From: Asterochloris sp. CNOR1
Taxonomy: Eukaryota > Chlorophyta > Trebouxiophyceae > Trebouxiales > Trebouxiaceae
Length of the DNA: 64,000 nucleotides
Direction: 5' to 3'
Assembly (NCBI GenBank): GCA_963969365.1
Contig: OZ017747.1
Span: 1,240,001 to 1,304,000, forward strand
Shown here piece after piece: positions 30,590 through 60,300 of the stretch. The position numbers were made by a program, and so were the translations under genes. How positions within the stretch are numbered: the stretch's first letter is position 1; every line of letters begins with the position of its first letter. The notes under the pieces were generated by a model. The model was given only the letters and a program-made list of their open reading frames with translations, had not been told where the DNA came from and did no database searches.

Positions 30590-33500
30590 TCATTCATGTT
30601 CAGTCCTCTGTGAATGCTGCTGCACAGCTGCAAGCATGGTTTCAATTGCACATGTCATGTACATTTGCATGGTACTCAACTGCTGGGTACTCAGCTGCAG
30701 CTGGGCAATGATTGCATTTGCTGAATGATTGGCCTGTCTTAAAAACTCCTGGTGTGCCAGCCGCCCTTTGGCAAGCCTGGCCTGGATCTCCGTGCCTGAG
30801 GTGGCTGGTGGGGTTGGGTCTACTCTTCCTATGTCGATATGCTCATGCATTGGTGTCTGGCTGTCCTGGGGTTCTTGACTAAGCTCAACTTGCGCGTCAG
30901 GTGTGGAACTGCATCAGTGAAAAGTGCGGATTGTGTTCATACATTCCCTAACAGCATCAATTCTCGTCGCCACCACCACATCAAGTCAACTGCTCGACTC
31001 ACCTCACAGACAGTGCATCTGCGCAAGCAGAGCTTCCCGCCCAGCTCAAGTGCTGCAGCTCTAAAAAGCTGGTACTGGGTTCAGGGCTCAGGACGGAGTA
31101 CCTCTGGCGCAGAGGTATCTCCTCTGAGCTCCTGAGCAGCTCTGGCAGCAGCCCACTTGGGCTGCTCGGTATTGTGAAGCTGTTGAGGCTATCTGCGCTA
31201 GCAGCATCAGCCGGTGGCAGCTGCTGGACCTGATCATTTGTGGGCTCTGGCTGGGGGTCCTGTGGTTCTGGTGGGCTGATAGGCTTGGGCACGGCAGCCA
31301 TGTGGTCCCGGGCACGCAGCTGCCGCACCCTGGCAAAGATGCTGCGAGAGGCCAGAGGCAGCATGCCTGGCTCCTGCTGGGCCATCACATCAGCAGCAGG
31401 CAACGCAGCGCTGCTCAGCTGCGCCTCAGAGTTCTGCTCAGCAGCCATGGTACCTTGTCTGCCGCTGCTGGCTGCATTGCTGCTGTCTGCTGGCAGGTGA
31501 GGCAGCAAAGCAGCAGCTGAGCCAAGTGATGGGGCGGGCGACACACGGCCATTCGTTGCAGGGGCCACAGCGCCGCATCGCAGCAGCTTCACGCGAGCAA
31601 CGATGCTCTGTCCCAGCCCAGCAGGGCCGGGGGAGCCCGCTGCTGTGCCTGCTTCACTGGGCCGGCGCTGCATGGCATGCAGGTCGCCCTGCTCCAGGCT
31701 GTGCCTCCCTGTCAGCGTGCGCAGCAGCTGGCCTAGCCCACCATAAGCCGCTTGCACAGCAGCCCCCAGCAGCAGGTGGCTGCTTGGAGCAGTGTCAGAA
31801 GAGCCCTCCTGGCAGGGGGCCTCTGACTGACCCTCCATGCTGTCTGGCAAAGGCTGCTCGACTGTGGCGTGACTGCTGTGCAGCATCTCATCCCAGCTGC
31901 CAGGATGCCCCACCTCTGCCTCAGCAGGCAGGGTGCCTGGCAGCAGAGCCTCCACATGTCGGCTGCTGACACCCTGCGCAGTGTCGCCAGTGCGTGTCAA
32001 TTCAGCAGCTTGCGGCCCGTCTGCAGTGTGACTGGTGCCAGCTGGCATGGTGGTCAGCTGGCTGGTCTGCCGCTGGGGAGGGGGCCGATCCTGCAGCATG
32101 CTGGCCACGCCTGCCGACAGGCTGGCGATGTTGGTGCGGGCTGCGCGGGTGCGGGACTGTCTGGCCCTCTCTGCAAGCGTCCCTGGCCTGCCTGACTTAG
32201 TAGGCCGCTGCCGCTTTGCCTGCCCTGCAGGCCCCTCAGGAGCTGCTGCAGCAGCATGCTGGGGCTCAGCCCATGCTGGGTCACGACCATGGGGCTGACT
32301 GCGCAGTCTGGCCACAGCCGCTGCAGATGCCACTGGCCCCATTGACGCCACAGGGTCAGGCCAGGTGTGGCTGACACCCTCAGGGGCCTGGCTGCTGGCC
32401 CTGCAGAACACATGGAAATGCGGTGGTCCCATCAGAGGCAGGGACGAGAGAATGGATAGTTGCCAGGCATGACGAGGATGCCGTGCAGGCTTGTGAGCTT
32501 AGCAGCAGGCTTGGACGATGGTCTGACCAGGCATGAGGTGCACAGCGCGCACTGTTAGGAGACAAGCTGGCCTGCAGGGGAAACTCATGCTGAGGCACCC
32601 TTGGACAGCACCTTCGGGTTCACCTGCAGGGTTGCTCCCGCTGGGCAGAGATGGCAGAGCCCAGCGCAGCCTGCAGGGTCTGCTGATGCGGGCAAGGCCC
32701 TCCTCGCGGTGAGGTGGGGTGCATCCCCAGCCGCGGCGTGGTCTGCGGCACCAGCTCTGCCGAGGCCAGGCGCAGGCGAGGCCGCTGGCTGGAGCGCGGC
32801 AGGGAGCCGATGCCGATCATTGAGGCTGAGCGAGGGGAGGGCTCCAGGCCAGGGGCCTGCAGGCCCTCAGCTGCTGCCGGCATGATGGCCTGTCGTCGCC
32901 GGCGCATCACGTAGTTGGGGCCAACAGCCTCGTCGACGTACCTGTGCTCTGCAGCCGCGCAAATGTCAGCCTCTTCCTGGCCCGGGTTCGGCTCAGGCCA
33001 GGCAGCGCGGTGGAGCGAGGCGTGGAGGGGAGACCTGGGCGTCTGGTGCAGTGAGCGGATGCCAACGCTGGCGTGGGCACGTGGGCTGGAGGGCGACCTG
33101 GAATGAGCTGCCTCCCTGCTTGACTTGCGTGGGGTGGACAGGTTGATGGACCTGCACACACATCGCGTCCATGACAGAGTAAGCAAGTGAGCAGGCTCTG
33201 AATGCTGAGTGTCAGTGTAGGGCTGCAGCTCATTCCAGGTGCTGCAGGGTGTGGGAGGGTGCCATGTGCTTGTTGCAGAACTGTGAGCGCAGGGGTAACG
33301 GCACCCTTGCTCACCTAATGCCCACTGCCCTCATCTCGCGAGCACTGCTGCCAGGCAGCTGCTCAGGAGGCTCCTCACTGCTGCTGGTGCCCGCACTGCT
33401 GCTGCTCCGCCTAGGGCTTGAAGTGCTGCTGGTAGTATCACCAGGCCTCAGCACCACAACTTCATCTGAACCAGGCTGAGGCAGGCTTGCGTTGAGTGCG

Positions 33501-36500
33501 AGCAGAGGCACCAGCCGCTCCGGCTTGATTTGCTCCAGCCTGCAGAGGGAGTCTCGTCAATGTAAAACGCTGGCAGAAGTGTCAACTTTATGTGTGACTG
33601 CGCTGAAAGCAGTGAGCTGCATGTTGCCCATGGACTCCACCTCGGGGGCTCAGGAGCAGGCGTCTGCGGCTTCAGAAGGGCCTCAGTTCTGGCCACTGTG
33701 CTGAGAACATCGGCAGCATGCCGTGCTGTCTCAGCCTGCAGCGAGTTTGCGATGCCAGCCTGGGCTCGCAGAGCCAGTTTAGACAGAGCATGCCTCCTGT
33801 GCCTGTTGCCAATGTTCTCGATGAGCCCAACCTGCAGCCCCAGACTCGCTCAGGATCACTGCGCCTGGCTGCAAAGCCTCAGGGCGGTATGCAGAGCCAG
33901 CAGTGACGCCATCAGCCAGTGACGTGTACCTGCTTCTGCTGCAGCTGCATCAGTAGCCAAGCCTGGTGCAAGCCATGGGCTGCAGCCCTCTTGAGCTCCT
34001 CCAAGTGCTTGTCATCGCAGTCCAGCATGCAGAGTTGATGGAGCTGCTTGCGCAGGCACAGCTGTTGAGCCAGATCCCACTGAGCGCAGCATGGGATCCT
34101 GTACGAGCAGCACTGCTCCTGTCAGCTTGCATTGTGAGGCAAAGCAACAGGTTGCTGCACCTGACACTGGCCCATCTCACCTGCGACTGTCATTGTCAGC
34201 CTGAAAGGAACTGCAATGTGCTTCAGAGATGAGCAGCTGCACTGCATGCTCCACATCAGGCTCTGCTGCTTTGATTGGAAGCCTGGCGACTGCTGCAGCT
34301 GAGCTCTCCCCCATGCGACCCTGCTGCAGGCATTTGGTCATGAACCGCACGGCCGTTCTGCCTGTCCCTGCCCTGCCAGGAAAGGCTGCCACCATTGCCT
34401 GGAGGCAGCTGTCTGCTGGGGATCCAATGCCTTGAGTTGATGTGCTGTCGCCTGTTGGATGACTCCTGCAGATGACATGGGAGTTTGTGGAGGGTGCATG
34501 CTGGCTGCAGGTGGTGTGCAGCTTGATCTGCGGCTGCTGTGGACATGCTGCCACCAGTCTCCATCATGGCAGACACAATGGCAGCCACATGAGCAGCACT
34601 GGTGCCTGATGATGTAACTCAGACTACAGCAATGGGTCCAGTACCAGCACAGGCTACTGCAGTTCACCTGACCACTTGCAGCAGGCCATGCCAGGCTTCT
34701 GCTTCTGACTGCCACACACTCTGCCAGAAGCCCAGCAGCCTCAGCCGCAGCCTCAGCAACAGCAGCCACTGGGAGTGGTAGTCATAAAGGGTGAGGCCCA
34801 GTATTATGCCAAACACACAGGTTTTCAGAAGCAGTGGCACCACTGACAGTAAAAACGTCTGCAGGCAGACATGAGGAGCTCAGCAGAAGCTCTGCACATA
34901 AGGCAACAGGATCAATGCCACACAGAGCCTGCAGAGCTGCCGAGTGCTGCCCACCAGGAGATTTGATGCTTACCTGCTGACTATGCTGCAACCTTCTTTC
35001 ATCAACATGAAACACTGGATCTGGTTGAGTTGCATGCTGATTGAAAAGCATTGAGCGTGTGGTAAGCTGAAGCAAGGTCTGAAAAGCACCTGCATGGTAC
35101 AAGGCGGGCTTTGTCATCTGGCAAGTGATGGTTTGGGCATGCTAACGATGAGGAAGGAGGCCATGGGGGAGCACAGCCCATCTGGATTCCAATGGCTCCA
35201 GCAATCATGCACACTGATGGTCCGGGCAATTTGATAGGTTGCCATGCCAGCTCATCTGACCTCCTAGGGTGCTGATGTTGCCTCTGTCTGGACCAAGTGC
35301 CAAGAACAGCAGGCAGGACAGCATCAGCAGAGCAACAGCTGTCACGATGGCCAGGTGGAGCAGGTCTGCCCAGCCCCTGGCCAGGGTCTGAGACACAGTC
35401 TGCAGGCAGGTACTGCAGCACAGGCAGCACAAGGTCATGTGCAAGGTCATGTGCAATGCAAGTAACTGAGTTCAACTGCGGAGCGAAGCGCGAGGAGGCA
35501 CTCACCACAGCCTCAGCAGACAGGAGAACAGCAGAATGAGTACCATGCACTGCAGGGCAGCTGCTGCCACCATCAGATTGCTGAGGACTTCGACGCAGGA
35601 AACAAAGGCCAGGTACATGTGGAGTCCTGCAGTCCGGCAAGGGACTGTGTCATGCAGTCTGTGATGGACAAGTTGGGCCTCAAACATCTGCAAATACGTT
35701 GAGATGCATCAGGCAGGCATGAGTCCTGACATGCAGTCTGCAGGTCAAGGCCGACTGCTCTGGGGACTCAGACAAGGCTGCCTGTGGTACAGGCTGAGCC
35801 AGGGCACGTACCTGAAGGGTTAGCTGGCAATGGCCACCTCCAGGGGCCACCCGGCTCAGCAGACAACGCTTTTGCATAATCAAGAGAGCCTGGCGCAGCA
35901 GCCGGACCCGCTTGACTGGATGCTGCTGCTCCTGCCGCCATGGCTGCTGTCAGGTTTGAGCGCAGCAACAGGAAATAGCGCGCTGGCGTGGACGCCTGTG
36001 CATCATAAGCGCTGTAGTCCGCTTGCGGGTGCAGCTGCGAGCTGATGAGTCCAACATACACAGCAGACAGGATCCAGCCTGCAGAGGCACTCAAGTGTTG
36101 CACAGCAGAGCAGGACAAACGGATACCCTGCACAAGCTGTGCCATATGACAGCAGAGCCACCTCCCACCTGCACCCATCGCCAACCCAGCTGCCCACTCC
36201 AGCACTAGCCTGGGATTCTTGTGGCATCGACTCCTCTGCCAGCTGGCTTCTGCCAGGGCATGGCGCATTGTGCAGCCCAGATACATCAAGAAGCCCAGAG
36301 TCAGTAGGGCCTTGACAACATCAACCAGGATGTACGGCCACCTGCGCATGACACAGGTCACTCATGGCAGGAAGCACATTATGATGCACATAGCAAAGCG
36401 TGCAGCAGACCAGGGTAGCGAAAGGACCAGCAATGCACTGCACACAGATGATGAGGGGTGCCAAGCATGATGCATATCACCGGGTCAACTTTTCAGCACC

Positions 36501-39500
36501 TGCATCTGTGAGCTAGATGCTGCCACACATAACACAAGGCAAGTCAGCCCACACCTAGCCCTCGACCCTGCGGGCAGAGTGGAGTACGCTCTGGGGCTGT
36601 GCACTGATCCACTGGGGTTCCACTGGAACCTGGCAGCTGCCACGCCTAGCAGCTGTGTGGAGGGGCTGTAGCTGATGAGCTTGACGTCCAGGGTGTGAGT
36701 CTCTCCATCCAGGTAGTCACCATCCTGTGGGGCACACAAGTCATGTTTCACTTCAGAAGGAGCACCGTTGCGTATAAAACAGTGACCCACTGCAGCAAGG
36801 CACAGACAGAGCCCCTTTACGCAAGCAGGAGGCATGGCAGCCGGTGGCGCACCCGAATGAACTGCAAGACTTGGCGAGAGCGCTTCTGGGAGACCTGACT
36901 ACTGACAAGCAGCGGAAAAGGCTGCTCAGCTTTGTGGTAGTTGAAGGGAAAGAAGCCATAGGGCGTCTGCATGTAGTCCACCTGAGTGGAGCCCTGCAGC
37001 GGGAGCCGGTTGTTACAGGCATGCTGTGTGCTGCGAATGTGCCTCTCATTGCCAGGTGGCAGCCTGGGCTACAGTTTATGTGCTCGCACCTGCAGCTGTG
37101 CTGCAGGTGGGACTACACCTGCGTTGTGTTGTAGTAGGCGGCCTCTTGGTCCACTTCGTCCAGCTGCCACAACGCTGACGACGTGTCAAAGACCGGGTCA
37201 TAGCCAAAGAAGTCATGGGAAGAGCTGAGGGTGGTGCGCCCTGCAATGCAGCGTGGTGGCGTGCGACAGCTTTGCTTGGACAGAGCCTTGGGGACACAGC
37301 TGAAAGGGGATCAATCGAGGCAAGTGCTTGCAGGGCTTTCTCAGCGGCCTCGTGCAGCCTCTGGATTGCCAGCCCGTCCTTGCTGAGGTCAATGCCCCAC
37401 AGACAGGCAGAGGGGTCTTGCCGGAATGAGCCAAAGGCTGGTGGGGCCGCTCACCCAGGTGCCGGGGCTGAGTGCAGAGGTTGTTGGCCTGTGCAAAGAG
37501 GGTCCTGCAGCGCTGGAGGTGCCGCTCCTGCAAGCCAACCCTTACATTGTCAAGCCTGGGAATATTGCATTTTGCAGGGCACTGGCATGCCCGAGCCTTT
37601 GCACAATTGACACATGTTGTGCTGCCCCAGACAAGGCTTGCGGCATGCATGCAGCAGCAAGCCTGGAAGGTCACACACACCTGGGTGAGCAGCAGGCCAC
37701 CAGCTGCCCTGTTGCTCCACTTAGTCCCAACAAATCTCAGGCGGTGGGAGTCTCGGAATGGCACTATGTAAGTGGCCTGCTTCTGGACCTCATACCCATC
37801 CAGCAGGCTGTCCTGCACCGAGCTGGCACGCAGCTGGCGGCGCTGGACTGTGCCTGAGGCTGCAGGGCTGTTGACCTGCACCAGCAGCAGCATGTGTCAC
37901 AGTGATGCAAAGCAAAGTACTGATGCCGCAGCATAGCGTCCAGTGAAGAGGCCACCTCACCGTGAAGCTGTACTTGGGATTGATATCAGCCCGGCTACAA
38001 CTGAAGCCAACGGCTGCGGCCTCTGCTTGCAGCTTGGCTTGCTCCTGTGCAATGGCACTATGATCTGAGGCCAGCACACTGCGTATTGCTTGCTGTGCCG
38101 ACTGCAGGAGCAAGAACACCTCAAGTCTGTGCTTCGATGGAGCATCAAGTGCTTGATACCACACAGAGTGCTCATACCAGCCAGCTGCCAGTCAGTGCAG
38201 CTCAAGACCAAAGGCTCACCGGTACAGTGATGAAGGCATAGGGTGGCTGCTGAGAGCCACGCAGCGCTTGTGCTGCATCACTCACATAGCTGTCGCGCCC
38301 CTCTGCCTGAGTGACATAAGCCAGCAACAGGAGCAGCAGCTGCTGGCGGTAGGTGTGCACTGACAACGATGCTGAGACTGACATGTCAGGAATTGAGAAG
38401 GCATGGGGTGCCTGCAGCTGGTCCAGGAGGCCCTGCACTGCTGCAGCCTGTGCTAGGGGAATGTCCACTGGTGGAGATGTGATCAGCTCGGCAGGTGGGA
38501 AGCCCAGCTGCAGCACTTGCAGGAGGGGCAGCGGGTTGATGGGCTGGCCAGCTGCCTGCGGGTGCAGACAGGACCACCTCAAAGCCCGTGCAGACGGTTG
38601 AGGTGCCCGCGGCAGTGGTGGAGGCCAGCAAAAGCTCAAGGGGTGGGACACAGGCAGCACAAGTCTGCCTATGCTGTTTGCTGGAGGTTAAACACTTGGA
38701 GGCTGAGGCTCTGCTGCAGATGTGAGCAGGCTGTGGCCTCACCTGGAGCAGGTGGCTGTTGAGCGCCACTTGCAGCCCCAGAGCAGCAGTGACTGTGGAG
38801 TTGAGGAGGGCAGGATTGGCAGTGCTGCACTGAGCCTGCATGAAGCTTGGTGGGTTGCCGTTGTAAAAATCGTTGGCAATGTTTGTGGCATTGCAGGTGG
38901 ACACGCCCTGGAAGGCTGTCACCAGAAGCGACAGCTTGAGCATGAGGGCGTAGACCAGGCTGTCATAGTTGTTGGAGCTGCTTTGCAGCAGGTGCCTGGA
39001 CTGCAGGCCCAGCTGGGACTGGCTGCCCAGCAATTCAAGCTGGCTGGCTGGCTGTGCCATGGCGTGGCTGACTGGCTTGGCAGGGCCTGTCTGTGTGGAG
39101 GCAGGCCTGCCAGCAGCAGCGCCAGTGGTCTGCTGCCCAAGCAGCCGCCTCTGTGTGCTGCCTGAAAGGCGGGTTGCATATGCTGTGGATGTCACAGTCA
39201 CGTTCACGCCCACCGACAGCCCAAAAGGCTCTGCTGCTGCAGGGTAGCTGCCGTTCACATATCGCGTGAAATTCTGTAGCAAGCTGATATTGGCAACTGC
39301 AACCTCCTCAGCACTGACTCCCAGGTAGGCAAAAGCATCCACCGCCCCGAACCTCTGGGCTGCCGCTGAGCTGTTGGCGCTGATCTGTGCAAGGTATGTG
39401 CCCAGAGCAGCTGCCATGGCAGTGCGGAAGGCCACATTGGCATCACTGCCAGGCTGCAGAAGTGCAGCGGCCTGCTGCAGAGCAGGGTCCATGCTTGGGG

Positions 39501-42500
39501 CAGCCCCAATCAGCAGCAGCAGCCCCTGCACAACTCCAGACTGGTAGACGTCCACCTCCAGAACCAGGGCGTCTGCTGCATTGCCGCTGACATCCAGCAC
39601 ATTGTAATTGACCTGATACCTGCAAGGGTGAAAGCACCTCATGTGACCAGCAGCCATTGTGCAGAATACACACTGCTGTGAGGGAACATGCCCTGTCTGC
39701 AGCAGCAGGCGCAAAGGCCAAATACTGCGGCAGGGGACAAGCACCCCCTTGTATCAGCAGGCATATACCCTGCCCCTTCCCTTATCTTGACTTGGCTGCA
39801 GGGCACTGGTGGCACACACAAGCTGGTGCAGGAGTACTAAGCAGCGCTTGGGGGTCCACTGCCACACACCCAACACCCACACAGCATTGCCATGGTTTGG
39901 GATATCCAGCTTGCACTGCCGAGAATCAGATGGGCTACCTAGCAGGGTAGCAGAGGCCCTGCTGCAAATAGGTGAGGGGGCAGGGGCTGCAGGTGCCGCT
40001 GCTGGCATCCAGACACTTCACCATAGGAGATGCCACAACGCTGTTTGAAATGTCGCGGCCCTTGGAGTCAACAGCCACTGCTGCGCAGTTGGCGGCACCT
40101 GCAGACACCCGACGTTGTCCAATGGAATGCTGGCCACAGGCCAAGTTTTCAGTAGTGAGTGCTGTTTAGCGCAGGCACACCAGGGCTCACCTTGACTGCT
40201 GCAAGGCAGCAGAGCCACGCCAGCACTGGAGCCATACTCGATGAGCAGCCTCCCGCTGCCACCAGCCAAGCCAGCCATGGCAGTGCTCAGGGACAGCACA
40301 GGCTTGGTGGCATTTGTCACCAGCTCAACCAGCTGGCAAGTTAATTTAAAACATCCACTTGGACAGTCAAAGAAGCCTGCAGCAGGGGTGCAAGGCAACT
40401 CATTATTATGTAGCATGAAGTACTGAAGCAGCATGCCACAACCATGCGCTGCTGTTGCCTGTGTCGCATGGTGAAGTCAGCACAATGACGCGGTCAACGG
40501 TTGCATTGCTGAAGGGCGGCTCTGTGTCAAACACGACGAAAGGTATTCTGAATACTGTGTTGGTTGGGGCTGAATTGTCCGGCCTGCAGTTCTGCAGTCC
40601 GACCCGCCAGAACTCTTGACCTGCAGTGTCAGCAACTGCCAACTTGTCAGCCCTGATGCACAGCAGCAGCACTGCAGTCAATCTGGCCAGGATCAGCCGG
40701 GCGGTGCACAGCAGCGGTGTTGCAGCGATTTGGGCAGTCCTGCTGTGGCTGACCTGCACAGCGTGCTGCAAGGCAGCTTGCAGGAGGACAGGCCACAATG
40801 CTGGCCGTCAGGTTGCTGCCCGCAGCACTGCTGGCGTTGGCCCCTGGTTCGCATGGGCTTGCGATGGTTGGAGTCACCCCTGCTGGGCAGGCTGCATATG
40901 TACTGAAACGCTTCAGCGGCAGCACTTGGGGCAGGACATAGGTGTTCAGCTGTATGCGGGGTGGCGGGCGCAAGGCTGGCAGGACGCTGGGGACGCAGAT
41001 GCCATACCGAGGACAAGCATCTGCAGTCAAACAAGCTGTTTGATAAGTAGACGCCTGGTGACACCATCAGTGATTCAGTGACACAAAAGACGTGCCCATG
41101 GGACAAGTCTTTTGCATTGTCATTCTTGCTGCAGGCAGGCAGCACTCAGGCAGCCATGGGACAGAAGTGTGCGGCCACGAAGGTCATAACTAGTGGTGTG
41201 ACTGAATGCTTTGCCCATCTGCAATTCACCATTGAAGGTGCAGATGGTCTCGTTCCCAGAGCATGGTTTTGTGGTGTTGCTGGCCACATCTGCTGGGGTT
41301 GCGGCAGGTGTGGCAGATGGCGATGTGACTGGCGTGCTCCATGGGGTGCCTGTCAGTGCAGGCGCTGCACTGCTGACAGCAGTAAGTGTTGGCACGGGAG
41401 TGGCTGAAGCTACTGCACTGCTTGTGGACGTAGAGCTTGCTGAGGTTGATGTTGGGGCTGCACACAGGGAAACCTGTTCAGCACTTACAGAGAGCGGCAT
41501 TCCCGTTTACTCTGCAACTAACTCAAGCAAAAGATTTCAGGGCCGCTGACAGCCGGAGGACCACGGATAGCCCTGCCGCAGGAGGCTTGCCTAGAGTGGC
41601 GGATGTCGAAGTTGCAGCCATGGTGGGTGCAGCTGTGGGAGCTTCAGCGGCCACTGTGATTGTCAGAGGCGGCGCTTTGGTGCTGGGCACAGCTGTTGAG
41701 GTCACTTGCATTGTGGCAGTGGGAGGAGCTGTAGACCCATTTTCGGCTGTGGTGGGCTGCTGACTGGTGCTTGGCGGAGCGGTGCTGGGCTCCTCAGTTG
41801 TAGTGCTGGGAGGCTCAGTTGAGGGCTCTTCAGATGTGGTGCCAGGCAGAGGCAGTGCCAGCGGTCCAGCAGTTGCTAGCATAGGCGCCGCAGCTGTCTT
41901 GGGCGCCTCAATGGAGCTGCTCGGCACCGGCATGGTATTGCTTGGCGCAGCACGGCTGGCTGACTCTGCACTAGTGCTCGGCTGAGCGCTTGTGAGCTCG
42001 CTGCTGGGAGGAGCAGTGGAGGGCACTTCTGTGGAAGGGCTGGGCTCAGCGCTTGTGGGCTGTCCAGTCGTGGTGCCTGGGGGTGCTGTTGAGGGCCCCT
42101 CTGCACTTGTGCTTGGAGGGGATGTGCTGCTGCTCGGTGGGGCCATGGTGGGCACCTGGGCTGTGGTGCTCAATGGCGCTGCTGTGCTTGTGGTGGCTGG
42201 CAGGGCTGTTGAGGGCTGCTCTGTGGTGCTGCTGGGTGCCTGCGTGGTGGTGAATGAAGGAACCAACATGGGCTCCTCTGTGGAAGTGTTGGGAGGAGCT
42301 GTGGACGGGGCCATCTGCGTGGTGCTGGGAGGCGCACTCAAAGGCTCTTCCGTGGTGGTGCTTGGAGTGGCAGGTGTGGATGTGCTGGGAGAAGCCGTGG
42401 AGGGCCCTTCACTGTTGGTGGTTAGCACCACTGTGGTCAAGGTGGGCACTGCAGTGCTTGTTGTGGCAGCTGCTGTGGTTGCTGCCCTTGTGGTGGTGGG

Positions 42501-45500
42501 CTCTGCAGTCGTGGTCGAGGGCACCCCTGTGCTGGTGGTTGGTGCCGCCGTAGATGTTATCTGCTGCGCCATGGTGGTGGGCGCAGTAGTGGACATTGCG
42601 GGTGCCTCGGTGCTGGTACTGGGCAGCGCTGTGGTGGTGGGCTCTGCGGTCGTGGTCGAGGGCGCCTCTGTGCTGGTGGTTGGTGCTGCCGTAGATGTTG
42701 TCTGCTGCACCGTGGTGGTAGGCGCAGCAGTGGACATTGCGGGTGCCTTGGTGCTGGTGCTGGGCAGCGCTGTGGTGGTGGGCTCTGCAGTCGTGGTCGA
42801 GGGCACCACTGTGCTGGTGGTTGGTGCTGCCATAGACGTCGTCTGCTGCGCGGTGGTGGTGGGCGCAGCAGTGGAATTCGCGGGTGCCTCGGTGCTGGTG
42901 CTGGGCAGCGCTGTGGTGGTGGGCTCTGCAGTCGTGGTTGAGGGTACCACTGCGCTGGTGGTTGGCGCTGCCGTAGGCGTCGTCTGCTGCGCGGTGGTGG
43001 TGGGCGCAGCTGTGGTGGTGGGCTCTGCTGTCGTGGTGAAGGGCACCACTGTGCTGGTGGTTGGTGTTGCCGTAGACATTGTCTGCTCTGCCGTGGTGGT
43101 GGGTGCAGCTGTACTTGTCGCGGGTGCCACTGGGGTCGAAGGCGCTGTCGAAGTTGTTGGCGGTGGTGGACTGCATCATGACGCCAATGCAGTCTGGGGC
43201 ATGTTGCATCAACCCATCTGGTGAGCAGTCTGCAACGTCAGCAGGCACTGCACTTGCCTTGGGGGTGGTGGCGGGCTGTCAGGTGGGGATGGACTTGGCG
43301 GTGGCGGCGGACTGCAGGCAGGAGGCAGCTCTTTGAGACAGCCAGCTCATAAATTCGAGACAGTAGGACGCAGTGTCAGTCCTTGCGCGACAGGCAACAT
43401 GCAAGGCCAGAGAAGCTGCAAATGGGTCAATGCAACAGTGGGAAGTGTCAGCAAGTCCTGTTGGGGCCATAGCGTCAGAAAACTTGATGCAGGCAGGTTT
43501 TGCATCTGATAACAGCTTGCAGACTGGGTGAGTTGCTGTGCTGCAAGCTGCACAGCTGACGGGATTCAGACTCAGCTTGAGCAAGCCCTGCAGCTGCCGA
43601 CTGATGCTTTTGTTTGCTGCAGCATGGCTACACTCAGCTGAGCTATTGCGGTTGCAGAGGTGATTGGCTGTCATGGGGGCATGCAATGCGGCACATTTAG
43701 GTGCTCTGGACAGTTGCAGGACCGCCAACGAAGGGAGCTGATGGCAGTGACTCTAAGGAGATACAGCAACAAGCACTCTGGAAGGGGTGCACTTGGGGCA
43801 GAGGCCTGCAGGCTGAGGCAACTGACATTGGCTGAGGAAATAGACCACATGTGCAAAGACATGGCTGGGCGTCTGTAGGAAGACAATGTGCAGAATGGTG
43901 GCAGAGCACGAAGCGCTGGAGGCAATGGTGGCAGGCCATGGCATCAATAGCTTGGCACATGCACAAATGCAAGTCACGAACACACTGAGCAAGTACGCAA
44001 CACCTGCCTAGGTGGTGATGGGCTTGGTGGCGGTGGGCTCGGTGGCGGTGGGCTTGCTGGCGATGGTGGACTGCAGCAGACGGGATGCACGTCACATAGC
44101 CAGTTAGTTTAAAAATGAAGTTGAGCAATGCAGGCACCCTGATGCTGCCGTGCTGCAGCCATGGATACAGTCAGCACTGTGCTTGCCTTGAAGGCGGAGG
44201 AGGGCTGCAGTCAGCAAGTAATGGCACATTGCTGAGCAGAAGCTGCAGGCGGCTGAGTGCCAAAATGAGCAAGTACAACTGGCAGGGACCTACCTAGGTG
44301 GTGGTGGGCTCGGTGGTGGCAGGGTTGGTGGCGGTGGCGGACTGCAGACATGAGGACGTAGTCTGGTCACATAGCCAATTAGTTTTGAAATTGAGCAATG
44401 CAGGCACCCTCATGCTGCTGTGCTGCAGCCATGAACACAGTCGGGGCTTGCCTTGAAGGCGGAGGAGGGCTTGGAGGAGGTGGAGGGCTGCAGTCAGCAA
44501 GGAATGGCAGATTGCCTGGCAGAAGATGCAGGTAGCAATGAGCAAGCACAACTGGCAGGGACCTACTCAGGTGGTGGTGGGCTCAGTGGTGGCGGGCTTG
44601 GTGGCGGCGGCGGACTGCAGACATGAGAACGCACTTTGGACGGCGCTGTTGGACCAATCAACAGGGGAAATATTGTAGGGGTCAAGCTGGCACCGCACGA
44701 GGCAGCAGTGAGAATCGTCATTGCTGTGCTTGCCTTGGAGGCGGAGGAGGGCTTAGAGGTGGAGGGCTGCAGTCGGCAAAGAATGGCAGCTCACTTAGCA
44801 GCAGATGCAGGCAGCTGAGTGCCAAAGTGAGCAAGTGCAACTGGAAGGGACCTACCTAGTTGGTGGTGGGCTCGGTGGTGGCGGGCTTGGTGGCAGCGGC
44901 GGACTGCAGACATGAGGACGCAGTTTGGACAGCGCTGTTGGACCAATCAACAAGGGGGACATCGCAAGTGTCAAGCTGGCACCCCATGAGGCAGCTGTGA
45001 AAATGGTCAGCGCTGTGCTTGCCTTGGAGGCGGAGGGCTTGGAGGTGGAGGGCTGCAGTCGGCAAAGAATGGCAGATTGCCTGGCAGAAGATTCAGGCAG
45101 CAATGAGCAAGCACAACTGCAAGGGACCTACATAGGCGGTGGTGGGCTCGGTGACGGCGGGCTTGGTGGCGGCGGCGGACTGCAGACATCAGGACGCACT
45201 TTGGACGGCGCTGTTGGACCAATCAACACAGGAGATACTGTGAGTGCCAAGCTGGCACCCATGAGCTGAGCTGTGAAACTGGTCAGCGCTGTGCTTGCCT
45301 TGGAGGCGGAGGGGGGCTTGGAGGAGGTGGAGGGCTGCATTCGGCAAAGTGGCAGGTCACTCCAGCAGAAGCTGCAGGCAGCTGACCGCCAAAATGAGCA
45401 GGTATGACTGGAAGGGACCTACCTAGGTGGTGGTGGGCTCGGTGGCGGCGGGCTTGGTGGTGGCGGCGGACTGCAGACATGAGGATGCAATTTGGACAGC

Positions 45501-48431
45501 GCTGGTGGATCCACAAGAAACTTTGAAGAACATGAGGAGTGCCAAGCTGTACAGATCACCCCTTCTCCGCCTCTAAAGCAAGCACAGTGCTGCTGCTGTG
45601 AGGCAGCCAGGACAATCCTCAGCACTGTACTGGCCTTGGAGGCGGAAAAAGACTTGATGGAGGTGGTGGGCTGCAGTCAGGACGGAAAAGGGAGATTCCA
45701 AGCAGAATTTGCAGGCAGCTGACCGCCATGAAGAGCTTGTAGAGCTTACAAGACCAACCTGGGTGGAGGCGGCGGACTTGGTGGCGGCGGGGGACTGTGA
45801 ACAACAGGATGAATGTCAGCCAGCAACCAAGAACCCTGAAGAACTGTTAACTACCAAGGTGTGCAAGGCATGCTCCTGCTGCTGTGCGGCAGCCATCACA
45901 TCAATCAGCATTGTGCTTGCCTTGGAGGCGGAGGAGGACTTGGAGGTGGCGGAGGGCTGCAGACGAGTCACGAAGTCAGTGGTGAGGGCATTGACAAACA
46001 GCTGGACGCAGAGATGAGCATGTACAGCAACACCTGCCTGGACGGTGGCGGGCTTGGCGGCGGTGGACTTGGCGGCGGTGGCGGACTGCAAGCAGGCCGG
46101 TTACACATGAAATTGCGCACAAGCAAATGACCAAAACACATAAACCCTTGTAATGAGCATAACGGTTCTGCTGCGTTCTTAGGATGGTGAGCTCTGGCAG
46201 CCTCATGCTTGCCTTGGAGGGGGCGGCGGACTGGGCGGAGGTGGAGGACTGCAAGAACAGTTTCTGTCAGAAGGCCATGCCGAGGACTCATCATACAAAA
46301 GCATAGCAGGCAGCATAGTGGCTCAGCAGCAACACACAGCATGCCTTGGGGGTGGCAGCGGACTTGGTGGCGGCGGCCTGCAGGCAGAGAAGTCTTGGAC
46401 AGGGTTCCTTTGATTGTTAAGGCGCTTTGGATAGCCAGCATGACATATGAAGCACCAGCGACTGCAATGCACTTGCCTTGGAGGTGGACTGGGTGGAGGA
46501 TTGGGTGGTGGCAAGGGGCTGCACCGTGCAGACACACAGACACTTCAGGTTCTTGGAAAAGACCACACGTGAGGCACTTTATTCACCTGACCCTTGAGTA
46601 TCAATTGATGCATGCCATCAGAGAGTGTCCACTCCCAATGTCTCAGCTGCCGGCCAAATGCATTCTGGCAAGCAGCACGAGGCAGCACGGGGCTGTGAGC
46701 ACGCGGCAGCTGTCAAACCGCAAGGGGTGTACCTGGGAGGTGGTGGAGGTGGGCTGCGCAGCAGAGAGCAGAAATGGGGTCAGAACAGGGCGAATTGAGA
46801 GGTCACGCCGCTGGACAGTGACCTACAAGCACAGAGCCATGCAGCCCACCTTGGAGGTGGTGGTGGAGATGGGCATGCCTGCAGCGACGCACTGATGTGG
46901 TAAGAGCTCTGTTGGGAACACACGAGCAGCATCCACTCAAACAAGGCTTGCCTTGTTCACCAGCGTGCTGGTGAAATTTGTGGTCAGAGTGAAGTTCCAG
47001 GCTGGTGCTGGCCCGCAGAGGATGGGATTGCGAGCCACATCGCTGCACAGGCACACACCTTCAGCTTTCAGACAGAGTGGCCACCAAGACTCAGTTCACT
47101 CCAGCAAGACAAGCTGTTCAAAGGACAGGTGCAGTGCTGCACAAGCAGCAGGCAGGACAGGCCAAGCCTCATCTGAGCTGAGCTGAACTGCAGCTCCTGT
47201 GGGTCTGTGTGGACAGCTTTGTGATCAACTCCTTTTGGCTGGCATGCTATCTAAATGCAGTGACTCACAACATGGTGAGGGCGGTCATGTTTGTGTAGTT
47301 CTGTGGAATTTGCATCATGAAGTTGTTGTTGCTGGCATTGCTGCATGCGCACAATGGCAGGGAGTTAGCAGAGATGCAGCTGCGTGGCGGATGAGTGGGA
47401 AATCAGAGCGCATGCGACCAATCCACATGCAAGACAACTGATTGACAAGCGCATAATCATCAAATACGGCATGTAACAGAAGCATGTCAGCAGAGGTTGA
47501 TATCTGGCCGCAGGCAGAATATCTCGCCGCAGGCTGCCGGTCAGGGCCTGCAAGCATCACAGACGAGCAAGGTGCAGAGCTCACAATGAAGCCAGACTTG
47601 TGCAGCTGTTGAGCTTTGGCGACATCGTTCCCACCAACGAAGAAGAGCTGATGTTGCTGCAGCCAGATGCAGATGATATCTCAGTCACACTGAGGTATCA
47701 GCCATGCAGGTAGTCTGGCTGAAGTGCAGGCAGGGTATGATGCTTCACTTCAGGATCAGGGGCAGGGCCTGTCTGCCTTCCCAGCAGTCCCTGCCCCAGC
47801 ACGGTGCTCACATGCTGCTGACAGCGCCTGAAGTGCTGCAGCCCACGCCATAGTATGTGCTGGACCATGAGCCTGTGCAGACCAAGCCCAGCAGCTGGCT
47901 GCAGACGCAGACAGTTCCACTCCATGAGCTGAAGATGCCTTTGGGGTCGCTGCTGATGCCGGTCTTGAAGCCAGCAGTGCAGGAGGCTGCAGACACGTGG
48001 GCAGTACACAAGACCAGCCTTGGCATCGTGGATGAGGCCGGACTTGAAACCTGTGCAACAGGATGCACTGGCAGCAACCAAGCCAGCCAGCAAGCCAGCC
48101 CTGCCGCTGTGGTTCTGCTTGCAATTGTGATGTGGATACCAGTAGAGGCAGGTGATGGCCGCCTCCAGAAATGGACCAGCAGCAGGATCTGCTGTGGCAG
48201 GCGCAGCAGGGGCGTGTGTTTAAGACATAGGTACCCACCGTCGTCTGCAGCACATTGCCAGGCACGCAGCTGTGTGAGGAGCACCACCCATGCTACTGCG
48301 GCCCTTCCCTGCAGCAACAGGCATTACAGTTGTGTGCCAACATTGGCAGCTGTGCATTTGAGGTCATTCAAGCAACCCCAGCTGAGGGCATGTCAATCAA
48401 GTGCACATGACATTAAACAACTTACTTTCAT
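30590..48431 (-). CDS. Giant LRR / Ser-Pro rod / mucin / polycystin-like membrane protein
   Basis: Exon 1 (ATGAAA, 48431-48426) joins GRAAVAWVVLLTQLRAWQCA (exon from 48308), a clean signal peptide. Next (from 47986) is an LRR N-cap, FKTGISSDPKGIFSSWSG. Then come phase-2 LRR exons (SLVGTMSPKLNSCTSLASL; NNNFMMQIPQNYTNMTALTM) and a C-cap, DVARNPILCGPAPAWNF. About twenty micro-exons (46.88-43.25 kb) encode Ser-Pro4/5. A Thr/Ser/Pro mucin-like exon follows (43.18-41.6 kb), then Cys-rich and HYR/cadherin-like exons (41.0-38.7 kb). Polycystin-type segments come next: YDPVFDTSSALWQLDEVDQE, GSTQVDYMQTPYGFFPFNY, and DGDYLDGETHTLDVKLISYS. Membrane segments include ILVDVVKALLTLGFLMYLGC, YLAFVSCVEVLSNLMVAAA, LLHLAIVTAVALLMLSCLLF and FLLSVVPLLLKTCVFGIILG. 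A long disordered Ser/Pro/Gln tail ends at 30590. The pore region diverges from PKD2, so channel activity is inferred. Phase carries across most joins checked; some extracellular and tail exons remain unresolved, so a split into two genes cannot be fully excluded. Confidence 0.68.
41477..43178 (-). repeat. Mucin-like Thr/Ser/Pro stalk with 141-bp tandem repeats
   Basis: One long exon (about 43178 to 41595) encodes a Thr-, Ser-, Pro- and Ala-rich stalk. The part at about 42490-43110 consists of four copies of a 141-bp (47-codon) unit plus a shorter one; each contains TTTAEPTTTALPSTSTEAPA-like text. A GC-AG intron (ag|gcaagc donor) then joins in phase 1 to a further Thr/Ser-rich exon (APTSTSASSTSTSS...). 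Dense O-glycosylation is likely. The region is open on both strands because the repeat lacks stops; the minus-strand reading is the one that splices in phase with its neighbours. Confidence 0.8.
43254..46880 (-). repeat. Tandem array of ~20 phase-2 micro-exons encoding Ser-Pro4/5 motifs
   Basis: Two alternating exon types recur. Type 1 is 48 nt, tccgccgccaccaccaag... ending cct ag before gtaggt, and encodes SPPPPPSPPPPSPPPP. Type 2 is about 36-42 nt, ccctccacctcc... ending cca ag before gcaagc, and encodes S-P5-S-P4/5. Each starts with one base and ends with two, so ag|t or ag|c rebuilds a Ser at every junction. Approximate minus exons: 46.87, 46.75, 46.5, 46.37, 46.23, 46.06, 45.94, 45.78, 45.65, 45.45, 45.32, 45.16, 45.04, 44.88, 44.75, 44.6, 44.47, 44.32, 44.19, 44.04 and 43.29 kb. 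The two-exon unit repeats every 274-290 bp between 44.3 and 45.4 kb, with intron sequence also conserved. One junction near 45.14 kb gives Ile instead of Ser. Confidence 0.85.
43330..43670 (-). other. Possible Cys-rich exon inside the Ser-Pro rod
   Basis: Between the last two Ser-Pro exons the minus strand is open for a Cys-rich stretch (CNRNSSAECSHAAANKS, then VSCAACSTATHPVCKLLSD, ASLALHVACRARTD). The spacing of Cys and amphipathic segments looks like a small extracellular domain, perhaps pherophorin-like. No donor joining it in phase to the next Ser-Pro exon was found, so it may be skipped or intronic. Confidence 0.35.
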
Positions 48432-57756: not shown

Positions 57757-58041
57757 GGCGGATGCGCACCAGCCGCCAGTACCTGCGGCTGAAAGCATTC
57801 TGCAGCAGAAGGACGGATTGCGTGCAGAGGTGATCCCACAGGTGTACATTGCTGCTGCTTCTGCCACTGATTGCACAGAATGTTGCGTGCTGCCTGCCAG
57901 AAGTCGTCCTTTGAATGTGTTGGCCATGCAGCTGCGCTGATGAGGCATCTCAGGAGCATTGTGCCTGCCCTGGCATGTGACAATCAGTATGGACCTGAGG
58001 GCCTGCTCTCATGCTGCCTGCTGCCCAGCCACCTGCATGCC

Positions 58042-59730
58042 ATGATGGCAGCCTGGCAATCTGCCTGGGAATGGCAACACTGAGAGCAGAGCTGGAACCT
58101 GCTTGCTCATTGCTGCAGTATTCTTCACCGGGCACCACCAAGAGAGCCACCAGGGCTTCTCAAACCGCGTCAACCTTCAAGAGAGCTGCGACACCTGCAC
58201 CCTCAGGGCGGACTACCCAGCGCACGCATGAGGTAGCTAGTCATAGCATGCTCAAGGCTGTCTGTATGGCAGGGCGTCCAATGGCGCTCACAGTGCATCT
58301 TGTTGCTCAAGCTGTCTCATGCCATGATGGCAGCCTGGCAATCTGCCTGGGAATGGCAACACTGAGAGCAGAGCTGGAACCTGCTTGCTCATTGCTGCAG
58401 TATCCTTCGCAGGCACCACCAAGAGAGCCACCAGGGCTTCTCAAACCGCGTCAACCTTCAAGACAGCTGCGACACCTGCACCCTCACGGCGCACTACCCA
58501 GCGCTTGCATGAGGTAGCTAGTCATAGCATGCTCAAGGCTGTCTGTATGGCAGGGCGTCCAATGGCGCTCACAGTGCATCTTGTTGCTCAAGCTCTCTCA
58601 TGCCATGATGGCAGCCTGGCAATCTGCCTGGGAATGGCAACACTGAGAGCAGAGCTGGAACCTGCTTGCTCATTGCTGCAGTATCCTTCGCCAGGCACCA
58701 CCAAGAGAGCCACCAGGGCTTCTCAAACCGCGTCAACCTTCAAGACAGCTGCGACATCTGCGCCCTCAGGGCGGACAACCCAGCGCTCGCATGAGGTGGC
58801 TAGTCATAGCATGCTCAAGGCTGTCTGTATGGCAGGGCGTCCATTGGCGCTCACAGTGCATCTTGTTGCTCAGGCTGTCTCATGCCATGTCGGCAGCCTG
58901 GCAATCTGCCTGGGAATGGCAACACTGAGAGCAGAGCTGAAACTGCTTGCTCTTTGCTGCAGTATCCTTCGCCAGGCACCACCAAGAGAGCCACCAGGGC
59001 TTCTCAAACCGCGTCAACCTTCAAGAGAGCTGCGACACCTGCACCCTCAGGGCGGACTACCCAGCGCACGCATGAGGTAGCTAGTCATAGCATGCTCAAG
59101 GCTGTCTGTATGGCAGGGCGTCCAATGGCGCTCACAGTGCATCTTGTTGCTCAAGCTGTCTCATGCCATGATGGCAGCCTGGCAATCTGCCTGGGAATGG
59201 CAACACTGAGAGCAGAGCTGGAACCTGCTTGCTCATTGCTGCAGTATCCTTCGCAGGCACCACCAAGAGAGCCACCAGGGCTTCTCAAACCGCGTCAACC
59301 TTCAAGACAGCTGCGACACCTGCACCCTCACGGCGCACTACCCAGCGCTTGCATGAGGTAGCTAGTCATAGCATGCTCAAGGCTGTCTGTATGGCAGGGC
59401 GTCCAATGGCGCTCACAGTGCATCTTGTTGCTCAAGCTCTCTCATGCCATGATGGCAGCCTGGCAATCTGCCTGGGAATGGCAACACTGAGAGCAGAGCT
59501 GGAACCTGCTTGCTCATTGCTGCAGTATCCTTCGCCAGGCACCACCAAGAGAGCCACCAGGGCTTCTCAAACCGCGTCAACCTTCAAGACAGCTGCGACA
59601 TCTGCGCCCTCAGGGCGGACAACCCAGCGCTCGCATGAGGTGGCTAGTCATAGCATGCTCAAGGCTGTCTGTATGGCAGGGCGTCCATTGGCGCTCACAG
59701 TGCATCTTGTTGCTCAAGGCTGTCTCATGG
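58042..59730 (+). repeat. Higher-order tandem repeat: six ~281-bp units in two ~844-bp trimers
   Basis: An anchor (atgatggcagcc, or atgtcggcagcc in unit 4) occurs at 58042, 58324, 58605, 58887, 59168 and 59449, giving spacings of 282, 281, 282, 281 and 281. Private variants show order A-B-C-A-B-C. Units 1 and 4 share gagagctgcgacacctgc; units 2 and 5 share cttcgcaggcacc and a cttgcatgag end; units 3 and 6 share acatctgcgccctcag and gtccattggcg. Each unit is largely open, encoding a Thr/Ala/Lys/Arg-rich segment (GTTKRATRASQTASTF...) followed by catgag|gtagct, which looks like an exon plus donor. Units 2 and 5 are one base short, shifting the frame. It could be an array of duplicated exons or a satellite grown from one. 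Confidence 0.92.
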
Positions 59731-60300
59731 TGAAGATGGGCATCAACCTGAAGGCTGCTCCCATATCCTGCCTGCCAACACATGTGCGCTGCGCCTCAGT
59801 GAGGCCAGAGCATGCTGCCACAGCACATGGCGCCCGAACGCTTCAATCCTGAGTGACAGTCAAAGCAGCAGGCAATGGTGTCCATTGTTTTTGTACCAAT
59901 CTGGAGTGCTCTGCTATTGCACTGCAGGGCCAGGGTGGTATGGCGGCGGCTGCTGCCTCCACCAGCAACACCATTCAGCCCCTGAACCTGAACTTTGCCA
60001 GGCTTGAGCACTCTACCTCAGCAACAGAGGCCTGCTGCCCCAGCAAGAAGTCTTTTTTCAGGCGTCTGTGCCCAGGTGCCTGGAGAGCTGCCTGCCTACA
60101 GCACCAGCACCTGCTGCCAAGGCGCCGAGTCCCCAGGCGAGCAGCCCAAACAACTGCTGCCTTGCTGCCCGGCAGCACTGTGTGGTTTTCTGTGATTGTG
60201 CGTCTCTGTGGGATAGCACTGTGGCAACAAAGGCAGCAAGTGTGCCCTTGTGGACCTGGGGGTGAGTGATCCACCTTGGCTGCACCTAGGAGGCAGCACA
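59731..60300 (+). other. Coding-like stretch of unknown gene
   Basis: After the tandem array an exon-like segment begins behind ctgcag near 59930 (GQGGMAAAAASTSNTIQPL, then LNFARLEHSTSATEACCPSK). A second, Pro/Ala-rich stretch follows near 60.06-60.15 kb (PTAPAPAAKAPSPQASSP in one frame). Neither is recognised, and no complete model was built. Confidence 0.3.

Follow-up and report, generated by a model that had tools for sequence, protein, structure and literature searches.

An LRR head, a Ser-Pro rod and a polycystin-type membrane part in one predicted polypeptide of the green alga Asterochloris

An LRR head, an extensin-like rod, a mucin stalk and a polycystin-type membrane part appear to be joined in one polypeptide encoded on the minus strand of the window, i.e., the whole stretch of 64,000 nucleotides of Asterochloris sp. 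CNOR1 DNA that was analyzed (C2:1240001-1304000 in a searched genome of 56.4 Mb and 21 contigs). This single-gene reading is well supported, because the head and the polycystin end recur in the same order at five other loci (C2b, C4a, C4b, C4c and C12); the original prediction, which had proposed just such a polypeptide from the sequence of the window, is in this respect upheld.

The explanation that we favor, and that we regard as probable, is that the protein is an MST3-type membrane receptor subunit, which carries an LRR head on a rod, has its S1 helix supplied by SIP and joins a PKD2 pore, with the window copy in a sensing or regulatory role.

The gene model and its extracellular modules

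Between a start ATG at 48431 and a stop codon at 30592-30590, the gene comprises 54 exons and 53 introns (37 of the GT-AG and 16 of the GC-AG type) and encodes 3,361 amino acids. Hand splicing left no internal stops, as against 77 and 93 stops in the two alternative frames of the spliced sequence, although the absence of stops is partly built in because the exons were picked by hand. Splice sites (GT or GC donors, AG acceptors) were likewise curated by hand: automatic gene finding gave degenerate or codon-biased models that served only as a guide and were replaced by hand splicing, and a forced one-gene Viterbi model took wrong frames in the rod and the pore and was corrected by hand. The G+C content of the window is near 59% overall and ranges from 54 to 64% per 2-kb step. 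All of the modules previously claimed (LRR head, rod, stalk, Cys-rich region and polycystin part) occur at the place and in the order predicted (Table 1), and the three exon joins that had been quoted (K|ACPSPPPP, S|PPPPTTST and TL|APTST) are correct.

Table 1. Exons of the predicted gene and the modules that they encode (positions within the window)
Feature	Position	Strand	Basis or remark
Exon 1: start codon, MK	48426..48431	-	in-frame ATG ~48479 upstream is a possible alternative
Exon 2: signal peptide GRAAVAWVVLLTQLRAWQCA, ~aa 1-22	48239..48308	-	by eye
Exon 3: LRR N-terminal cap	47812..47986	-	aligned to FLS2 N-cap, i-E 2.0e-6 and 3.3e-6 (two FLS2 chains)
Exon 4: LRR 1, 72 nt, phase 2-2	47585..47656	-	72-nt counterparts in four paralogs
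Exon 5: LRR 2, 72 nt, phase 2-2	47269..47340	-	72-nt counterparts in four paralogs
Exon 6: LRR C-cap, NPILCGP	46952..47042	-	LRR head ends at aa 162
Exons 7-27: 21 Ser-Pro micro-exons, 18-63 nt each	43258..46878	-	spliced model
Exon 28: final SPPPP, then Thr/Ser/Pro stalk; GC donor	41591..43170	-	rod and stalk joined within one exon here and in both paralogs examined (C2b, C4a)
Exon 29: stalk end into Cys-rich region	41230..41457	-	spliced model
Exons 30-33: Cys-rich/Ig-like region	39939..41020	-	relatives at 11 genome loci, window counted
Exons 34-36: more ectodomain and helix-rich stretch preceding TOP	37961..39619	-	spliced model
Exons 37-41: polycystin TOP domain, aa ~1751-1983	36555..37875	-	homology
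Exons 42-47: helices S2-S6; pore without GDF	34668..36341	-	homology, PKD_channel match, hydrophobicity scan
Exons 48-54: tail of ~1,030 residues and stop codon	30590..34465	-	cytoplasmic by inference

Of the LRR head that had been claimed, the N-cap, the LRR exons and the C-cap are present, but full repeats number only two; both are encoded by phase 2 exons, as foreseen, each of exactly 72 nt. A further exon candidate between them (ALTGSLRRD, at 47547) was dropped since it breaks phase 2. A signal peptide can be recognized by eye, as the original prediction held, but was not flagged in the hydrophobicity scan at 1.4. LRR_1 stayed below its Pfam cut-off in the head (12.7-13 bits vs. 20.6). A phmmer search of the head against the PDB returned 108 sequences at E<=5, of which the best 60 have plant LRR receptors on top. 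FLS2 reached an E of 1.5e-26 over the whole sequence, a value so strong because the score adds up many repeats; its best single stretches are those given for exon 3 in Table 1. The same search matched LRX2 (6qxp) at E 2.9e-9 and PEX1 at E 2.4e-7, and a genome-wide LRR search found, among the matches listed, the window, C12 and otherwise weak matches.

About 20 Ser-Pro micro-exons had been predicted, and 21 were counted (E7-E27), the lengths of E8-E27 being multiples of three in every case (20 of 20). Together with the start of exon 28 they encode a rod of 280 residues (aa 163-442), among which are 209 Pro and 53 Ser, with 37 SP3-5 motifs; the 696-nt intron I26 may hide additional rod exons. 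Part of the rod (44446-45509) is a tandem array of 3.7 copies of a 289-bp unit, within which GC and GT introns alternate, an arrangement suggesting that the rod grew through duplication of a two-exon unit. GC donors occur in 14 of the 22 introns within and flanking the rod (introns 6-27, 43171-46951) vs. 2 of 31 in the rest of the gene. At 22 nm per 79 residues, the value given for the helix of MST1 (PMC11015965), the 280 residues would extend over ~78 nm.

Past the rod, the stalk (Thr/Ser/Pro/Ala) continues to ~aa 1030, the Cys/Ig-like region to ~aa 1300 and further ectodomain to aa 1750. The HYR family, against which a search had been proposed, was not confirmed, as no Pfam family matched the Cys-rich pieces at E<=5. 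The stretch at 37450-37240 (GIDLSKDGLAIQRLHEAAEK) is open but was kept as intron because the paralogs align without it; it could be an alternative exon.

Two other features of the window were noted. The upstream neighbor (54694-48677, minus strand; ends from a rough model) is a CPSF2/CPSF100-like gene (Lactamase_B_6, 1.1e-56; CPSF100_C, 8.5e-17), and a repeat array at 58011-59852 (plus strand) consists of recurring open frames that contain CHDGSLAICLGMATLRAELEPACSLLQYP units.

The membrane part, its likely partners and its role

The similarity to polycystins that had been read from the exons is confirmed by a phmmer search of the PDB, in which the TOP-TM part matched 9b4h_X, a chain of 8,572 residues, at E 2.4e-25. 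The alignment covers TOP and S3-S5 (query 45-234 and 293-474), with the TOP of 9b4h_X matching that of the window at an i-E of 3.9e-15, and it crosses several exon junctions unbroken (e.g., ANPSG|LHMYL vs. DDVSGLHALG). With a profile of five family sequences, 9b4h_X was found at 1.4e-56, and all 25 matches at E<=1 are 9b4h_X, PKD2L1, PKD2, PKD1L3, PKD1 or mucolipin-1, the best animal polycystin being PKD2L1 at 1.2e-4. Because 9B4H is reported as the model of a mastigoneme (PMC11015965), and judging from the length, name and PKD-like part of the chain, chain X is presumably MST3. A tie to the axial protein of Chlamydomonas mastigonemes had originally been drawn, and it is indeed the mastigoneme core that proves to be the nearest solved relative (9b4h_X). 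PKD_channel, one of the families to which the prediction had pointed, scores above its curated cut-off in the spliced protein (28.6 vs. 22.4 bits, E 1.2e-6), and Polycystin_dom (TOP) scores below its own (12.1 vs. 23.6 bits). PKD_channel is split between exons in the window, for which reason it was missed there when the genome was searched at E<=0.001.

In place of six helices (S1-S6) in one chain, we find five hydrophobic peaks past TOP, corresponding to S2-S6 (aa 1988, 2035, 2150, 2191 and 2262), and no helix placed like S1 ahead of it. Hydrophobic peaks above 1.4 do precede TOP, at aa 43 (1.43), ~1318-1346 (1.45) and 1520-1538 (1.74), the last of which lies in the ectodomain ~230 residues ahead of TOP and matches the S3 peak (1.75) in strength. 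Because such peaks exist, it is chiefly homology, and less the hydrophobicity scan, that supports the absence of S1 and the topology. When paralogs were scanned at 1.6, C2b had no pre-TOP peak and C4a had one elsewhere (residue 400), neither being at the place of aa 1520; at this setting, the S3 peak was missing from C4a and the S4 peak from C2b.

The acidic GD filter is also missing from the window copy: GDF is absent from its pore, where the alignment has a gap inside one exon. By alignment, C2b and C4a have IIGDFMG at the pore, and IIGDF is also in the model of C4c, such that the motif is kept in three of the five paralog models, those of C4b and C12 being broken at the pore. The claim of a channel is therefore good for a polycystin-type membrane part and not for a complete channel in a single chain, which would have both S1 and GDF. 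As to the tail, of which 1,057 residues were scanned, no Pfam family matched at E<=1, including any kinase domain as in LRR receptor kinases, and its first 269 residues found no convincing match in the PDB (best E 0.56).

Since both S1 and GDF are missing, the chain most likely depends on SIP and PKD2. In AlphaFold models of Chlamydomonas proteins, SIP is reported to complete partial polycystins, and in the case of MST3 to supply the S1, two TOP helices and Ig-like domain that MST3 lacks (PMC11015965); SIP itself is described as a protein of 361 residues with a single helix, resembling PKD2 at the N-terminal region of the latter (PMC10846610). In the Asterochloris genome there are two PKD2-like genes (C3, ~2715-2724 kb; C5, ~588-600 kb) with S1, a CGDG motif and a canonical pore; their S1-like exons (RYMKQTQRWRDYAKLFTFLGFVALFLSVLYLQRGAQTAYEV and its counterpart) precede a CGDGICEEPFEYPSYGSFGCRADCG-type exon and the exons of the canonical PKD pore. 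A search with this S1 region found, besides C3 and C5, the locus C17:926829-926250, at E-values of 2.8e-11 (containing one stop, where the exon ends) and 0.018. The C17 locus (C17:926829-925000; 4.5 kb read) has an S1 helix, a CGDG motif, CGDGNCEYPWEFPAYGPFGC and an Ig-like part but no TOP; the genome searches gave no TOP-TM or PKD_channel match there among the matches listed, and the spliced piece of the gene had no match in Pfam. Because its layout agrees with that described for SIP, the C17 gene is a SIP-like candidate. A weak PKD_channel match at C7:1553828 was rejected as a PKD2, resembling by eye a four-domain voltage-gated channel; in the PKD_channel search at E<=5, one of 14 control genomes (Synechococcus) also matched, and the weak matches at C7, C13 and C15 may for this reason be due to chance.

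If the chain is a receptor subunit of the MST3 kind, its order from outside to inside would be LRR head, rod, mucin-like stalk, Cys/Ig-like domains, TOP and helices S2-S6, with the N-terminus outside the cell because S1 is absent. A separate SIP would contribute S1 together with a portion of TOP, and the two proteins would join PKD2 subunits to make the pore, an assembly that we infer from the comparisons above. The window copy, since it lacks GDF, is probably a sensing or regulatory subunit and would stand to the channel as PKD1 does to PKD2. The rod, presumably glycosylated, would keep the LRR head tens of nanometers off the membrane, such that binding to the head or pull on it acts on TOP. 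The head may bind a ligand or the matrix, the channel may be gated by force or ligand, and the wall tethering and mechanosensing proposed originally are conceivable. The likely site of such a complex would be the cilium or the cell surface; the genome encodes a radial spoke protein 3 (E 2.3e-27), which makes motile cilia plausible, and flagellate zoospores and gametes are reported from Asterochloris glomerata (PMC6652019).

It is conceivable, but in our judgment doubtful, that the membrane part is a mere anchor for an extracellular fiber, as MST3 anchors mastigonemes, and not a channel subunit. The window copy would suit such a task, having no GDF filter, and in Chlamydomonas mastigonemes are reported to be lost without the complex (PMC11015965, PMC10846610), the sip, pkd2 and mst3 mutants having none (PMC11015965). 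However, three siblings of the window copy keep IIGDF at the same place, and the base of the family is therefore channel-like.

The receptor-subunit reading can be extended, tentatively, to the family: a shared base (PKD2 with one SIP) might show interchangeable LRR heads on glycosylated rods, in which case the members with GDF would conduct and the window member would sense. If this were true, one type of channel would acquire different ligands or substrates depending on the family member, such as the fungal or wall surfaces that the zoospores of a lichen alga meet; the alga studied here is probably a lichen alga. If the heads bind ligands, this would be a receptor-channel family with built-in rods, the mechanics of which are testable.

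Paralogs and the number of genes

Of 19 exon matches found at E<=0.01 when the genome was searched with the TOP-TM part, 11 belong to the window gene, and relatives of the Cys/Ig-like region were found at 11 loci, including the window, with 41 matches at E<=0.1. Stretches were taken for eight genes, and five of them (C2b, C4a, C4b, C4c and C12) were subjected to spliced alignment with the window protein, toward which, as the query, the alignments lean. At all five (C2b being at C2:1764-1778 kb), an LRR head is followed by the Cys/Ig-like region and then by TOP-TM on one strand. The five heads scored 154-193, each above the scores from 20 runs with shuffled queries (four per locus; 95-120) and from opposite strands (104-123), these two controls covering only the LRR heads; control stretches without an expected head (n = 5, 4.5-20 kb) scored 76-110. 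Two 72-nt LRR exons are present at each of C2b, C4a, C4b and C4c, the heads of which came to light only through spliced alignment and motif search.

Between head and Cys/Ig region, Ser-Pro rods occur at C2b, C4a, C4b and C4c vs. only a short Pro stretch at C12. The mucin stalk is not unique to the window member, since it is also found in C2b and C4a. The models are of uneven quality: that of C4c contains one stop and 54 pieces, many of them spurious, C12 is poorly modeled over its membrane part, and for C4a and C4b the N-caps had to be pieced together from many small fragments. C13 has rods, a Cys/Ig region and weak PKD matches, but a head sought there in 20 kb did not rise above the controls (score 109). 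At C16, a Cys/Ig region is accompanied by weak matches to PKD and to LRR (the latter at E 0.04). Three LRR-rod-polycystin genes form a local cluster within ~65 kb (C4:3816-3881 kb), one on the plus and two on the minus strand. A prokaryote genome collection scanned for stray algal contigs produced 22 pattern matches, of which none was confirmed as a relative.

The recurring order bears on whether the window holds a single product. The stalk junction, I28, also has a GC donor, which adjoins an in-frame stop and TGTAA (41489-41591), a motif that we take to be the green-algal poly(A) signal and that occurs six times within the gene, always in introns and near the background density of 0.38 per kb. 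Alternative use of this donor could yield both a soluble or wall-bound LRR-rod-mucin form and the membrane-anchored protein; the unspliced stalk exon also runs to a stop in both paralogs examined, but an unspliced intron reaches a stop by chance anyway, and we consider the production of both forms improbable. Still less credible are two adjacent genes, i.e., a secreted LRR-extensin-mucin ending at the stop 41525-41523 and a Cys/Ig-polycystin gene from ~41500: although exon 28 would read to the stop at 41523, ahead of the TGTAA at 41489, if the I28 donor were unused, and an in-frame ATG lies directly ahead of exon 29, this putative start is by eye without a signal-peptide-like segment, exon 29 opens in phase with further Thr/Ser/Pro stalk, the Ig-like-domain exon opens with a Thr/Pro-rich stretch in both paralogs examined, and the order recurs at five other loci, three of which are yet clustered, such that gene pairs could have been co-copied.

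Comparison with known systems

The original prediction that no protein of this kind had been described was too strong, since MST3 and seven partial polycystins of Chlamydomonas are in print (PMC11015965); for an LRR-rod-polycystin family in Trebouxiophyceae, no describing paper was found among the matches listed, in a search whose coverage mostly excluded subscription papers. The partial polycystin base is itself not new, nor, given MST3, is the fusion unprecedented. MST3 (Cre06.g309951) and the window protein both have a large extracellular N-terminus with poly-Pro, TOP, S2-S6 without S1 and a long C-terminus. They differ in length (8,572 aa for 9b4h_X vs. 3,361 aa) and in what stands at the front: MST3 is described with one or more C-type lectin domains and 42 copies of a P13/P11/XXP repeat (PMC11015965), whereas in the window protein the front is formed by an LRR head and SPn rod, and none of its scanned pieces matched a lectin family of Pfam. 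The seven additional C. reinhardtii proteins are presented in 2024 as having a large ectodomain and an incomplete PKD domain (Fig. S7, PMC11015965); six of the seven are poly-Pro-rich, and LRR is among the domain labels of that figure. They are likened to the window protein by their published description.

Animal polycystin-1 is comparable as a PKD2-partnering polycystin subunit with a large ectodomain, and it gave a weak profile match (E 0.087); PKD1, however, is reported to reorient its N-terminus by means of five extra helices and not by loss of S1 (PMC11015965). With regard to SIP, its presence is reported in Trebouxia and Micromonas, both of which are without MST1, and the portion of that account available to us names no partner for SIP in such algae (PMC10846610). 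The LRR-rod-polycystin family is a direct candidate for a SIP partner outside the Chlamydomonas lineage.

With the plant LRR-extensins (LRX/PEX), the window protein has in common a signal peptide (by eye here), an LRR of LRX2-like sequence and, thereafter, an SPn rod. It differs from them in having two full LRRs only and in a rod without Tyr, and therefore without the Tyr-X-Tyr motif; and whereas the extensin domain of LRX is reported to form the C-terminus (PMC4769139), the window protein continues into a stalk and membrane part. LRX was found in none of the four algal species covered by the survey as available to us (PMC4769139), against which an LRX-like LRR-rod unit is here seen in a green alga. 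What appears to be new, the seven Chlamydomonas proteins having been compared by description only, is an LRX-like head and rod placed on an MST3-type base, and its occurrence as a multigene family.
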